From positions 1,364,001 through 1,428,000 of the forward strand of contig NZ_CP081855.1 of the NCBI RefSeq assembly GCF_019797825.1: 64,000 nt of DNA, in the 5' to 3' direction. Source of the stretch: Limosilactobacillus panis. GTDB lineage: Bacteria; Bacillota; Bacilli; Lactobacillales; Lactobacillaceae. The position numbers and the translations under genes were made by a program. Below, piece by piece: positions 1,437-62,812 of this stretch. The notes below the pieces were generated by a model, which saw only the letters and a program-made list of their open reading frames with translations, had not been told where the DNA came from and made no database searches. Position 1 is the first letter of the stretch, and each line of letters starts with the position of its first letter.

Positions 1437-1613
1437 ATGAAACAATTAACAAAGGGATTTTTAATCGGAACTGCATCAACTTTAGCAGCGATTGTCAGTG
1501 GCGCCGTTGCTTTCCATAAGACGGTTATTAAGCCGGTTGAAGAAGAAGAGGTTAAGTTCGACGAAAACCGGCGGGCTGCCACCCGGAAGAACCGTTCTGC
1601 ACACCAATTCTAA
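1437..1613 (+). CDS. DUF3042 family small protein
   Basis: A 58-residue protein preceded by a perfect AAGGAGG site (1421-1427). It has a short Lys-containing N-terminus, one hydrophobic segment (about residues 8-26, FLIGTASTLAAIVSGAVAF) and a charged C-terminal half rich in Glu then Arg/Lys (VEEEEVK, ENRRAATRKNRS). This pattern matches the DUF3042 family, which is widespread in lactobacilli and has no known function. The hydrophobic segment suggests a membrane-anchored peptide with a cytoplasmic tail. It is a monocistronic unit divergent from miaA and closed by a strong terminator. Confidence 0.8.
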   Translation: MKQLTKGFLIGTASTLAAIVSGAVAFHKTVIKPVEEEEVKFDENRRAATRKNRSAHQF

Positions 1614-1640
1614 TTCCTCAACATTTTAATAAAAAAGTGA

Positions 1641-1670
1641 GGCTGGAGAAAAAATCTCCAGCCCCTTTTT
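1641..1670. terminator. Bidirectional intrinsic terminator
   Basis: A 9-bp perfect stem GGCTGGAGA / TCTCCAGCC (1641-1649 and 1655-1663) with a five-A loop is followed by TTTTT on the plus strand and preceded by AAAAAA (1631-1636). It can end both the DUF3042 transcript and, on the other strand, the rhodanese operon. Confidence 0.85.
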
Positions 1671-16465: not shown

Positions 16466-16700
16466 AACAAAAAAGCTCCATCCCAATAGGGACGAAGCTT
16501 CGCGGTACCACCCTAGTTTACTAGCTACGGATAACTAGTACACTTAGTCAATCAAAATAACGGTGATCAACCGGAATACCATTACGTATCAGCTCGGAAA
16601 ATGAAATTCACCTTTGCACACTGACCACCACTCTCAGAATCCGTGGTGGCTCTCTGACGGGCCCGACCGGCTACTAGTTTTCGTCAACGCCTTTTTCATA
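16466..16700 (-). ncRNA. T-box leader of pheST (Phe specifier)
   Basis: On the minus strand the leader has the T-box antiterminator sequence AGGGTGGTACCGCG (16500-16513), immediately followed by a terminator stem AGCTTCGTCCC / GGGATGGAGCT and TTTTTTG. Stem I shows AGTAGCC and AGAGAGCC elements, and a TTC triplet lies in the likely specifier loop (GTGAATTTCATTTTCC, about 16593-16608). Uncharged tRNA-Phe should stabilise the antiterminator and permit pheST expression. The T-box itself is certain; the exact specifier position is inferred. Confidence 0.93.
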
Positions 16701-31890: not shown

Positions 31891-31926
31891 GGCAACGCAC
31901 CTCCAATTTTATTAGCGAAAGATCAA

Positions 31927-32062
31927 GCAAAAAAAGCGGGGGTGCAAACTGCATCCCGCTTCATCTAAACAGACCTTACCTGGCCGTTCAATTTCATCTC
32001 GTCAGCCCGGCGATCCTTATCACCTAGGCGAGAAGCGGGTGCTTCTGCTTTTTCTTTCAACG
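31927..32062 (-). ncRNA. infC-rpmI-rplT leader with attenuator (L20-leader type)
   Basis: Between promoter and infC the minus-strand transcript carries a paired upstream part (GAAGCACCCGCTTCTCGCC, then GGATCGCCGGGCTGACGAGA) and a strong terminator AGCGGGATGCA-GTT-TGCACCCCCGCT followed by TTTTTTT (31929-31960). This is the layout of the Firmicute L20 leader, in which bL20 binding favours the terminator. The identity as an L20 leader rests on position and layout, not on a model search. Confidence 0.8.
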
Positions 32063-60481: not shown

Positions 60482-60514
60482 AATTATTGTTGTTTGATAG
60501 AGACAAATAGCAAT

Positions 60515-60598
60515 GCCCCAGTGGCGGAATTGGCAGACGCGCAACGTTCAGGTCGTTGTATGGGTTTCCATGTACAGGTTCGAATCCTGTTTGGGGCA
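60515..60598 (+). tRNA. tRNA-Leu (anticodon CAG)
   Basis: An 84-nt class II tRNA: acceptor GCCCCAG / TTGGGGC, D arm with GGCGGAATTGGCAGACGC, anticodon stem CAACG / CGTTG with loop TTCAGGT (anticodon CAG, reads CUG), long variable arm TATGGGTTTCCATG and T arm ACAGG-TTCGAAT-CCTGT. CCA is not encoded. Confidence 0.93.
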
Positions 60599-60604
60599 TC
60601 AGAT

Positions 60605-60638
60605 AAGTCCGGTAGATATTATTCTGCCGGGCTTTTTT
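60605..60638 (+). terminator. Intrinsic terminator after tRNA-Leu
   Basis: AAGTCCGGTAGA (60605-60616) pairs with TCTGCCGGGCTT (60623-60634; one G-U and one mismatch) around TATTAT, followed by TTTT. Confidence 0.8.
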
Positions 60639-60655
60639 CGTACGTGGGGGAAATA

Positions 60656-61372
60656 ATGAAAACTAATCAGAAAATTTATGAAGTATTTATGGCGGTGCTC
60701 GCCATCATTTCGATTATCCTAATCGTCCTTAGTTACGGGTCGGTCATTGATATCAACCATGGCTACCCTGAACTGTTGAACAACGCCATCTTAATCATCT
60801 TTACCATTGATTACTTTACCCGTCTCTTCCTTGCCAAAGATAAGAAAAAATTCTTTAAGGAAAACATTTTTGACCTCCTATCTATCATCCCGGTCAGTGC
60901 CTCCTTCAACCTCTTCCGGTTTGACCGCATTGGACGACTCGTCGTTGTCTTCCGCCTTGTCCGCCTAATCGGGCTTACCGGTAAGCTAAACCGGTTGCTA
61001 AAGATTAACGGCTTGATATACATCATCTACACCAGTATCGCTATTTTGATTGTCAGTGCTTCGATGTACTCAATCAGTGAGCGTGTTCCTTACGGCGAAT
61101 CACTATGGTGGGCCATCGCAACTGCTACCACGATTGGTTACGGGGATATTTCACCCCACACCTTTCTCGGCAAGCTTGCTGCAATCCTGTTAATGGTGAT
61201 TGGAATCGGCTTTGTCGGGGTTCTTACTAGCTCCCTGACTAATTTCTTCATCCAGGACCACACCAACGACCGGATGGCAACCGTCTTAAACAAACTAAGC
61301 GACCTCGAAAAATCAAACCGGGAGCTCCAAGCTGAAGTCCGGAAACTTTTGGAAGAAGAACGCAATAAATAA
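60656..61372 (+). CDS. Voltage-gated-like potassium channel
   Basis: A 238-residue membrane protein with six helices in Kv order: S1 (about 9-28), S2 (42-60), S3 (70-82), a basic S4 (FRFDRIGRLVVVFRLVRLIGL, 87-107), S5 (118-138), the pore loop with filter TTIGYGD (158-164) and S6 (174-198). A C-terminal coiled coil (about 200-238, Glu/Lys/Leu rich) may tetramerise. The start ATG at 60656 follows GTGGGGG; a longer frame would read through tRNA-Leu and is rejected. Confidence 0.92.
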   Translation: MKTNQKIYEVFMAVLAIISIILIVLSYGSVIDINHGYPELLNNAILIIFTIDYFTRLFLAKDKKKFFKENIFDLLSIIPVSASFNLFRFDRIGRLVVVFRLVRLIGLTGKLNRLLKINGLIYIIYTSIAILIVSASMYSISERVPYGESLWWAIATATTIGYGDISPHTFLGKLAAILLMVIGIGFVGVLTSSLTNFFIQDHTNDRMATVLNKLSDLEKSNRELQAEVRKLLEEERNK

Positions 61373-61420: not shown

Positions 61421-61702
61421 TTATGCTTTAACCCGTTGAATCATTGTCCCGTAACCGGTCAACACTAAAAAGCGCGGTGCCACTTGTACGTTAGCAATAT
61501 TCGTATTAAAACGAATATTAACGATTCCGTCAGCTCCCTTTGCTTCGGCCCGTTCCTTCATCTTCTCCTTGACCTCATCAAAGAGCTGGTCCATAGATTC
61601 AAAAGCATCAATTGCGTCACTGGTCAACATCAAGTGACCCGTTGCGTTGACAACGCCTAAGATGCGGTGCGCTTGCGGATAATTCTCTGTTGATAAAAAC
61701 AC
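61421..61702 (-). CDS. YbjQ/DUF74-family (heavy-metal-binding-like) protein
   Basis: A 93-residue protein with the YbjQ fold pattern: VVNATGHLMLTSDAIDAFES, KMKERAEAKGADGIVNIRF, a variable strand and FLVLTGYGTMIQ. Members form pentamers; function uncertain despite the name. It starts at GTG, 9 bases after GGGGGG. A structured RNA ends about 50 bases upstream, so this gene may be read through from that promoter. Confidence 0.85.
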   Translation of the reverse strand: MFLSTENYPQAHRILGVVNATGHLMLTSDAIDAFESMDQLFDEVKEKMKERAEAKGADGIVNIRFNTNIANVQVAPRFLVLTGYGTMIQRVKA

Positions 61703-61756
61703 TCGACCCTATCCCCCCTTCCTGTCGTTAAGTATAACAAGATTTTTCTCTTTATT

Positions 61757-62084
61757 GACCAAACAAATAGCCCCCAGAACTTGGTTAATCCAAATCCTGG
61801 GGACTTTGTGCACAGGGAATATATCCCCTGGCTATACGGAAGGAATCTCGCCACTTTGCTCTGGAACTGATTAATTACCTAACATTTTGATTCTAACTTC
61901 CGCAAAGTCGCATTTTGTATACCATGAGTAAAGCGCACCCCGGTGACCTGACTCACTTCATAAACTTTACCAATACTATGGGTCACTCTTACGTTGCTTC
62001 TGCCTACTCCTTATGTCCTTCGGCTCCTTACATCGTGGGAGATCTTCATGACGAATCATGATCTCTTTTCTTCTTTCCTTCCAC
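61757..62084 (-). ncRNA. Unidentified structured non-coding RNA with its own promoter
   Basis: The 429-base gap 61703-62131 holds no gene but a well-defined RNA unit on the minus strand. After the promoter at 62091-62119 the RNA begins near GTGTGGAAGGAAAG. GGAAGGAA near the start can pair with TTCCTTCC at about 61838-61845, closing a domain of about 240 nt that contains GAGATC-ATGA-TTCG-TCAT-GAA-GATCTC (a hairpin with a TTCG loop), GGTAAAG/CTTTACT and ACTTTGC/GCAAAGT stems. Two hairpins follow: CAGGGG-ATATAT-CCCTG-like and CCCCAG...CTGGGG (61771-61802), the latter perhaps a terminator with a weak T run. No class (RNase P, tmRNA, 6S, SRP, T-box, common riboswitches) was recognised. Confidence 0.65.
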
Positions 62085-62090
62085 ACTTTT

Positions 62091-62119
62091 AATATACCAC
62101 TACTTGTAAGCGGTTGCAA
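62091..62119 (-). promoter_or_regulatory. Promoter of the unidentified RNA
   Basis: On the minus strand -35 TTGCAA (62114-62119) and -10 TATATT (62091-62096), with TGG in front of the -10 (extended -10), exactly 17 bases apart. One of the best promoters in the window. Confidence 0.8.
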
Positions 62120-62131
62120 CCATATTTTAAA

Positions 62132-62812
62132 CTAAATTGAATGCATCAAAGCAGCGATAGCTACCGCATTATTCAGGGCGTGAATCAACATACTATTCTT
62201 GATATTTCCCGTCTTCCGGTAAACGTACGCCAGCACCATCCCCATAAAACAGTAGAGAAAAAAACTCACGATTGTTGTGCTGGCGTGGGCTGATGAGAAA
62301 GCAATCCCGGATAAAATAACTTTAGGCCAAAAGCGCGCTGGCTTGAAGAAAAGATTGGTTAAGAGCCCCCGGAAAATCAACTCTTCGGCAACCGGGGTCA
62401 GGGTAAAGGAAGAAATTACAAATACACCGGTTACTAACCTGTTATGGTCCAGCATTTGCCGAATTAGCTCGTTATTCGCCGTCCCGCTCTGGTGAAAGAT
62501 TACTTCGTTGAGCCAGGAGAAAAACATCATCCCGACCACCACAACAAGGTAGCCACCGATTATCGTACCAACCTTGATCCCGGTCCTCTGGGGCAGCTGG
62601 TTGTACCGGTGAAAAACGTAGCTAGCCCGGTTGATAATGAACAAAAAGATCAACACAAACAGGCTAGACATCACGATTGCGACCCCCTGGTTATCAGGCC
62701 GCCGGTTAGCAATTGCCACTGCCATGGGAGGTATTTGAATAAGAACATAAAAGAGAAGAAAAAGGCCCACCCGGTAAAGGAAGTTCCCTAGTTTAGTCTC
62801 CTTGATTTTCAT
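62132..62812 (-). CDS. CPBP-family (CAAX/Abi) intramembrane metalloprotease
   Basis: A 226-residue membrane protein with seven to eight helices and the CPBP motifs: PVAEELIFRGL (E143, E144, R148), FSSAHAST (H176) and LIHALNNAV (H211, N214). Such proteins are often bacteriocin immunity or protein-processing proteases in lactobacilli. The ATG lies within the end of the upstream gene (20-base overlap), so they are probably one operon. Confidence 0.9.
   Translation of the reverse strand: MKIKETKLGNFLYRVGLFLLFYVLIQIPPMAVAIANRRPDNQGVAIVMSSLFVLIFLFIINRASYVFHRYNQLPQRTGIKVGTIIGGYLVVVVGMMFFSWLNEVIFHQSGTANNELIRQMLDHNRLVTGVFVISSFTLTPVAEELIFRGLLTNLFFKPARFWPKVILSGIAFSSAHASTTIVSFFLYCFMGMVLAYVYRKTGNIKNSMLIHALNNAVAIAALMHSI

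Follow-up and report, generated by a model that had tools for sequence, protein, structure and literature searches.

The minus strand between positions 61757 and 62119 of the window (the whole stretch of DNA analysed here, 64,000 nucleotides) looks, by comparison with related genomes, like a free-standing gene for a structured non-coding RNA. The predicted RNA is composed of a 245-nt folded body and a terminator hairpin, and its putative promoter carries a conserved cre-like operator. Judged from sequence comparison, the gene is inherited in Limosilactobacillus and Paucilactobacillus. The RNA is apparently undescribed, as it was not in Rfam 15 and none of the top-listed papers of the literature searches describes it in title or opening lines of the abstract. 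Our best explanation, held with about even confidence, is a catabolite-repressed structured RNA that acts in trans, probably through the binding of a partner by its folded core. The positions of all features are collected in Table 1.

Table 1. Parts of the RNA gene and its two flanking genes, in positions of the window.
Feature	Position	Strand	Basis or remark
YbjQ-like gene (downstream context, not part of the RNA)	61421..61702	-	PF01906, 25.6 bits
CPBP (Rce1-like) protease gene (upstream context)	62132..62812	-	PF02517, 73.2 bits
Predicted transcript, ~325 nt	61760..62084	-	predicted from promoter and terminator positions
Predicted transcript ends	start near 62084; stop in U-rich stretch 3' of terminator	-	predicted
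-35 hexamer TTGCAA	62119-62114	-	inside cre-like operator TTGCAACCGCTTACA
-10 hexamer TATATT with TG extension	62091..62096	-	promoter scan; present in relatives too
cre-like operator TTGCAACCGCTTACA, overlapping the -35 hexamer	62105..62119	-	consensus match and conservation
P1 5' arm GGAAGGA	62076..62082	-	canonical pairing across copies
P1 3' arm TCCTTCC	61838..61844	-	pairs with GGAAGGA
P2 hairpin GAGATC...GATCTC	62039..62065	-	size and sequence differ strongly among relatives
P3 5' strand GTAAGG	62026..62031	-	changes on both sides across the helix
P3 3' strand CTTTAC	61928..61933	-	pairs with GTAAGG by comparison
P3b 5' strand GCC	62022..62024	-	covariation of P3b
P3b 3' strand GGC	62002..62004	-	covariation of P3b
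GAA of GAA/AGUA module	62019..62021	-	1.93 bits
AGUA of GAA/AGUA module	62005..62008	-	2.0 bits at all four positions
J3b/4 junction AGAAGCARCRUAAG	61987..62001	-	mean 1.75 bits, 15 columns
P4 5' strand GTGAC	61982..61986	-	covariation of P4
P4 3' strand GTCAC	61943..61947	-	covariation of P4
J4/3 segment, CGGGGTGCG in window copy	61934..61942	-	mean 1.64 bits, 9 columns
P5 5' strand ACTTTGCGGAA	61898..61908	-	conserved sequence
P5 3' strand TTCC...GCAAAGT	61853..61866	-	conserved sequence
Terminator-like hairpin, 16 pairs, then ATTTGTTTGG	61769..61805	-	hairpin scan

A DNA search recovered the promoter together with the RNA body from 39 of 50 congener genomes (Limosilactobacillus, own genome included), the copy of the closest relative being 93% identical. 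A covariance model of the core (R1) matched in 40 of the 50 Limosilactobacillus genomes, own included, and in 34 of the 41 of good quality; since 10 of the 50 congeners gave no match, the RNA appears to be dispensable in some lineages. In a sample of 397 genomes of the family the RNA was present in 27, from two of 40 genera (Limosilactobacillus and Paucilactobacillus), and a second model (R2), built on copies from both genera, returned the same 27 genomes. R2 gave five matches among 395 genomes of the order, in two of 80 genera (the same two), and matched only the window's own genome among 398 genomes of the class; the stricter filters of such large searches lose weak matches, so these counts do not prove absence from other genera. 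A pattern scan of named genomes yielded 37 loci, six of them in named Paucilactobacillus species and the rest under the names Limosilactobacillus, Lactobacillus or Lactobacillaceae. An exact-pattern scan of viral contigs returned 0 matches, and BLAST of the window copy against plasmids and phages gave no match. The lack of viral-contig, plasmid and phage matches in these searches speaks against a phage- or plasmid-borne RNA of the ROOL or GOLLD kind.

The comparisons below draw on 47 copies. Five of the 37 named pattern-scan loci are in this set; two added copies (L084 and L100) seem to stem from genomes G010 and G039. The remaining 32 named loci apparently duplicate, for the most part, genomes already in the comparison. 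Alignment A1 holds 27 of 30 loci (L014, cut off by a contig end, was left out, as were L005 and L020, which are almost the same as L004 and L021). The core alignment A4 holds 46 of the 47 copies, the decayed L054 being excluded. Counts of ORFs and terminators refer to 45 of the 47, with L061 and L100 left out, their 3' arm being unrecognised. The copy in L054 (around 1500-1660, plus strand) has apparently decayed: its core and P5 remain, its best cre fit has three mismatches, and the 3' strand of P4 is unrecognisable.

The usual gene order in Limosilactobacillus is dNK, p202, LacI, p79, CPBP, RNA and ybjQ; some loci lack members of this series and others do not extend far enough to show the whole of it. 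In most Limosilactobacillus loci the RNA has a CPBP match upstream. The earlier note had left two options, a small RNA of its own or a long regulatory leader. Its first option is favoured by the promoter, a terminator-like hairpin, the lack of an Rfam match and compensatory changes among relatives. A hairpin with a T-rich stretch follows P1 within about 110 nt in 44 of the 45 parsed copies; shuffled tails passed loose hairpin criteria in 8 to 19 of 45, and under strict criteria (stem of at least 10, at least four G-C pairs) 44 were observed versus 0 to 2 in shuffled tails. The second option, a leader of the ybjQ-like gene, would account for ybjQ being the next gene on the same strand in the window and many relatives, but we consider it extremely improbable: the terminator-like hairpin stands between the RNA and ybjQ, several copies of the RNA have no ybjQ downstream, and genome G034 keeps ybjQ without the RNA, its CPBP and ybjQ genes being separated by 16 bp (L126 3742-3758). 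Downstream (3') of the RNA, ybjQ was not seen in oris-, mucosae-, frumenti- and coleohominis-type loci, nor in five named Paucilactobacillus loci (a sixth stops at the contig edge).

Most congeners without a match to the RNA keep neighbours of it. The p202 gene is retained in nine of the 10 congeners without an RNA match, and in eight RNA-less congener stretches CPBP is present and R2 finds no RNA (best 8.8 bits, E 3.9), so that the RNA seems to have been lost as a unit. In Paucilactobacillus the genes upstream of the RNA encode an acetolactate decarboxylase (three species), a sugar-binding-type protein (one) and a PLD-domain protein (one). Acetolactate decarboxylase, an overflow-metabolism gene, was the nearest listed upstream gene in the Paucilactobacillus loci L071, L078 and L082, possibly by chance. 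Integrase-like genes (arm DNA-binding domain) lie downstream of the RNA in two loci. The L. frumenti locus has, next to its integrase-like gene, a 27-bp direct repeat (96%) whose copies are about 10.3 kb apart (L145 308-334 and L144 10000-10026), and this repeat and the integrase-like gene possibly mark an integrative element. The repeat, the only direct one found in the L. frumenti locus, lies several hundred bases beyond the RNA, which is thus not shown to be an integration target; the second integrase-bearing locus gave no informative direct repeat.

It is very improbable that the transcript encodes a small peptide, as a dual-function RNA or a toxin-antitoxin type. Short ORFs do occur in many copies, reaching 58 codons in one, but those in the remaining copies are common only to close relatives (judged by eye), and no conserved peptide was found among the 45 parsed copies, 13 of which lack any ORF of at least 15 codons.

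Upstream of the RNA, the hexamers TTGCAA and TATATT, described earlier at a spacing of 17, were found as stated, with TG before the -10 and a scan score of 9 out of 12. Promoter-type sites in the region numbered three versus 2.3 expected from shuffles; the hexamers by themselves thus prove nothing, and the case rests on comparison. Overlooked until now was the conserved cre-like operator that covers the -35 region. Of the 47 copies, 37 match the cre consensus, which we take to be WTGNAANCGNWNNCA, exactly, and 46 match it when one mismatch is allowed; in all 46 the distance from cre to the 5' arm of P1 was constant at 35-36 nt. Shuffling of the upstream stretches, repeated for 50 rounds, never gave such a match in more than one of the 47 (0 or 1 per round). 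In the window, WTGNAANCGNWNNCA was matched exactly once, at the RNA operator; we estimate that chance alone would give about half a match in 64 kb, and it is therefore conservation that lends the site its weight. The own genome encodes CcpA (464.8 bits, curated cut-off 442.35), and a cre placed to repress therefore occurs together with ccpA, as expected of a CcpA-repressed sRNA. While the preferred sugar is plentiful, CcpA with HPr-Ser-P would bind cre and block RNA polymerase, and once that sugar is exhausted the RNA would be made. We consider such repression, with synthesis of the RNA on depletion of the preferred sugar, to be probable.

The ccpA model had 13 matches in the own genome, and a LacI-family gene two genes upstream of the RNA (63060 onward) scored 189 bits. 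It is unlikely, in our view, that this local regulator or another paralogue controls the promoter in place of CcpA, with the RNA as its effector. The gene occupies this place in the window and in many Limosilactobacillus loci, and a cre-like box is readable by other LacI-family proteins. Furthermore, position 15 of cre is T, not A, in seven of the 47 copies (L015, L021, L022, L025, L027, L081 and L098), and in five of these (L015, L021, L022, L025 and L081) the interval from p202 to the RNA showed no LacI gene; the DNA upstream of L098 is too short to show LacI, and LacI is present at L027 (longer locus L096). The T-bearing copies are mostly close relatives and are not independent. Against control by the local gene, the operator is retained with at most one mismatch in loci where no LacI gene was seen, and it is exact in L013, where none was seen between p202 and the RNA. 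In vaginalis-type loci, which showed no LacI gene close to the RNA, it persists with a changed last base, and it is kept in Paucilactobacillus, in whose loci no close match to the LacI gene was seen (27% in one).

When folded as a single sequence, the window copy was more stable than 100 of 100 shuffles (z -4.8), and this, together with compensatory changes among relatives, agrees with the structured RNA proposed in the earlier note, whose listed sequence motifs were all located on the minus strand. The pairing of the first bases of the RNA with a segment about 240 nt downstream corresponds to P1, the helix that closes the body around the P3-P3b-P4 core and P5. P1 is kept across copies: at six positions all 47 of 47 have a canonical pair, at the seventh 45 of 47, and G-C is changed to A-U at one position in nine copies and at another in two. 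Two of the stems that had been read from the letters need qualification. GAGATC and GATCTC, around a TTCG hairpin, can close P2, but the minimum-energy fold pairs GATCTC elsewhere; the letters of GTAAAG/CTTTAC are present and paired in the minimum-energy fold, but comparison pairs CTTTAC with GTAAGG to give P3. Folded by itself at minimum energy, the window copy thus departs from the comparative structure in P2 and P3. P2, which varies between species, was omitted from the covariation count. The stem ACTTTGC/GCAAAGT was correctly recognised and is P5, conserved among parsed copies. Its CUUUG/CAAAG segments are identical in 45 of the 45 copies parsed for P5, so no covariation is testable at those positions; this count omits, from the 47, the Paucilactobacillus copies L064 and L065, which carry a different P5 sequence.

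Covariation among homologues, which had been put forward as a check, was found in P3, P3b and P4. P3 has changes on both sides at 10 of its 10 column pairs, with 70% of cells paired; its innermost pair fails in 15 copies, whose sequences point to a one-base offset, not to loss of the helix. P3b has 95.6% of cells paired and changes on both sides at two of its three pairs, and P4 has 99.3% paired and such changes at three of six. Overall, across the three helices in alignment A4, 83.3% of cells held standard pairs versus 71.4% in shuffled alignments, and 15 of 19 pairs had changes on both sides. The covariation score was 0.420 versus 0.216 for shuffles, a value reached by 0 of 500 shuffles, and the best slid control gave 0.232, a comparison in which the structure is favoured over its slid versions because it was drawn from the tested sequences themselves. 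Further pair types in the core were not unusually numerous, as 152 of the 500 shuffles had at least as many.

The most conserved bases lie in the junctions (Table 1). In 44 of 46 copies GAA directly follows the 5' strand of P3b and AGUA directly precedes its 3' strand, a layout that we take to be a bulged-G (sarcin-ricin type) module. Variable parts include the strands of P3 (0.35-0.55 bits), the apical loop of P3b (0.66) and the loop of P4 (0.72). From this profile we infer an RNA with tertiary structure rather than a single exposed seed, and the invariant junction suggests that the RNA has a specific partner. The AGAAGCAACG junction briefly appeared to us to resemble 16S rRNA, a resemblance that was dropped because copies with AGAAGCAGCG break it.

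An antisense mode of action is possible, though doubtful to us. A catabolite-repressed RNA of this kind would pair, through single-stranded stretches, with the ribosome-binding sites of mRNAs for sugar use, for which RsaI of Staphylococcus aureus is a precedent: according to PMC9266662, it is repressed by CcpA, signals glucose depletion and acts at the SD of sugar-related mRNAs to stop their translation. Two stretches of the new RNA fit such a role, namely a CUCC/UCCC stretch 5' of P3 in at least 24 of the 47 copies (the scan missed at least three more, L003, L015 and L022) and AGAATCAAA, which the P5 loop holds in 26 of the 27 A1 copies. However, copies from mucosae, coleohominis and Paucilactobacillus showed no such C-rich stretch, it is predicted to be largely paired in 22 of 24 copies (unpaired probability 0 to 0.4), and the terminal loops are variable, the invariant bases sitting in junctions and internal loops. 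As the stretch was not found across the RNA family, a family-wide C-rich antisense seed was rejected.

Action in trans by binding to a protein or complex, rather than through a conserved antisense seed, is the mode that we prefer, with confidence a little short of even. Contact with the protein or large complex would be made by the invariant bases in the junctions around P3b and P4, and the effect would be to adapt metabolism or gene expression to growth on poor carbon sources. The conserved junctions could instead be the sign of a ligand or of a catalytic role. Only tentatively do we go further and suggest a new class of RNA, with a ribozyme-, riboswitch- or RNP-like core, found in two genera of lactobacilli, switched on at the loss of catabolite repression and binding a central machine. 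Its core would be made up of a three-way junction, the bulged-G module and the invariant junction bases; its partner would be a machine such as the ribosome, RNA polymerase or an enzyme of metabolism; and it would reset the cell for poor sugars, beside and independently of 6S RNA.

Catabolite control in lactic acid bacteria has mostly been described through protein genes. If true, a dedicated structured RNA controlled through a cre box would give this control an RNA arm as well. The RNA should lend itself to testing, as it is present in some related species and absent from others, and, given the invariant junction, its partner might be named directly by pull-down.

None of the 4227 families of Rfam 15 matched the RNA at gathering score in the window. 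At relaxed thresholds nothing convincing appeared in the RNA region, and there was no match in 11 relatives; the earlier by-eye impression that the RNA belongs to no known class thus agrees with the Rfam check. PMC8040213 gave 0 occurrences of the terms searched, and such large microbiome screens may carry the motif in supplementary files. Elsewhere in the window, a T-box leader (16485-16696, minus strand, 95.2 bits) reached the Rfam gathering score, and a ribosomal protein L20 leader (31922-32056, minus strand) scored 61.4 bits. A tRNA-Leu (CAG) at 60514-60600 (plus strand) lies within a long TTG-started ORF (60494-61372), in which the ion-channel-like gene probably starts 3' of the tRNA.

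The known RNA that most needed weighing was 6S RNA, as we initially found no 6S in a family search of the own genome, and a cre over the -35 is also described at the 6S gene. In about one third of lactic acid bacteria the 6S promoter has such a site, interpreted as CcpA repression, according to PMC8414754. We nevertheless give next to no credence to a divergent 6S or another housekeeping RNA. The 6S model (RF00013) matched neither 61650-62200 at E up to 10 nor any of 11 relatives at E up to 5, and both a genuine 6S and the RNase P RNA are located elsewhere in the own genome. This 6S (L037 1336-1523, minus strand, 51 bits, cut-off 46.4) adjoins a rarA-like gene (MgsA_C, PF16193), with a Usp-family gene beyond an intervening 115-aa ORF. 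The genome-wide family search had missed it, a false negative, and it was found by scanning the rarA-side gap, upon which the divergent 6S was rejected, unless a second 6S exists. No cre-like site was found around the own-genome 6S at up to two mismatches.

The new RNA therefore shares with 6S a free-standing gene and, as described for some lactic acid bacteria, a cre overlapping the -35, but differs from it in fold and place: 6S is a rod with a central bubble and a pRNA template and in lactic acid bacteria lies between rarA and uspA, whereas the covarying core of the new RNA is a branched P3-P3b-P4 junction and its gene lies between CPBP and ybjQ. RsaI is likewise a CcpA-repressed non-coding RNA in PMC9266662, and the new RNA is expected to be alike in regulation; RsaI is 111 nt long and pairs with SD sequences, whereas the new RNA is predicted at about 325 nt with a conserved folded core. 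The models of Lacto-usp (RF01710), Lacto-rpoB (RF01709) and the other Lactobacillales RNAs of Weinberg et al. had no match to it. Lacto-usp, considered as standing in for 6S, was not found in the own genome either, a result that proves little, since the same search matched no control genome. In kind, the new RNA resembles Lacto-usp and Lacto-rpoB, which Weinberg et al. 2010 (PMC2864571) present as clade-restricted structured RNAs found by comparative means.
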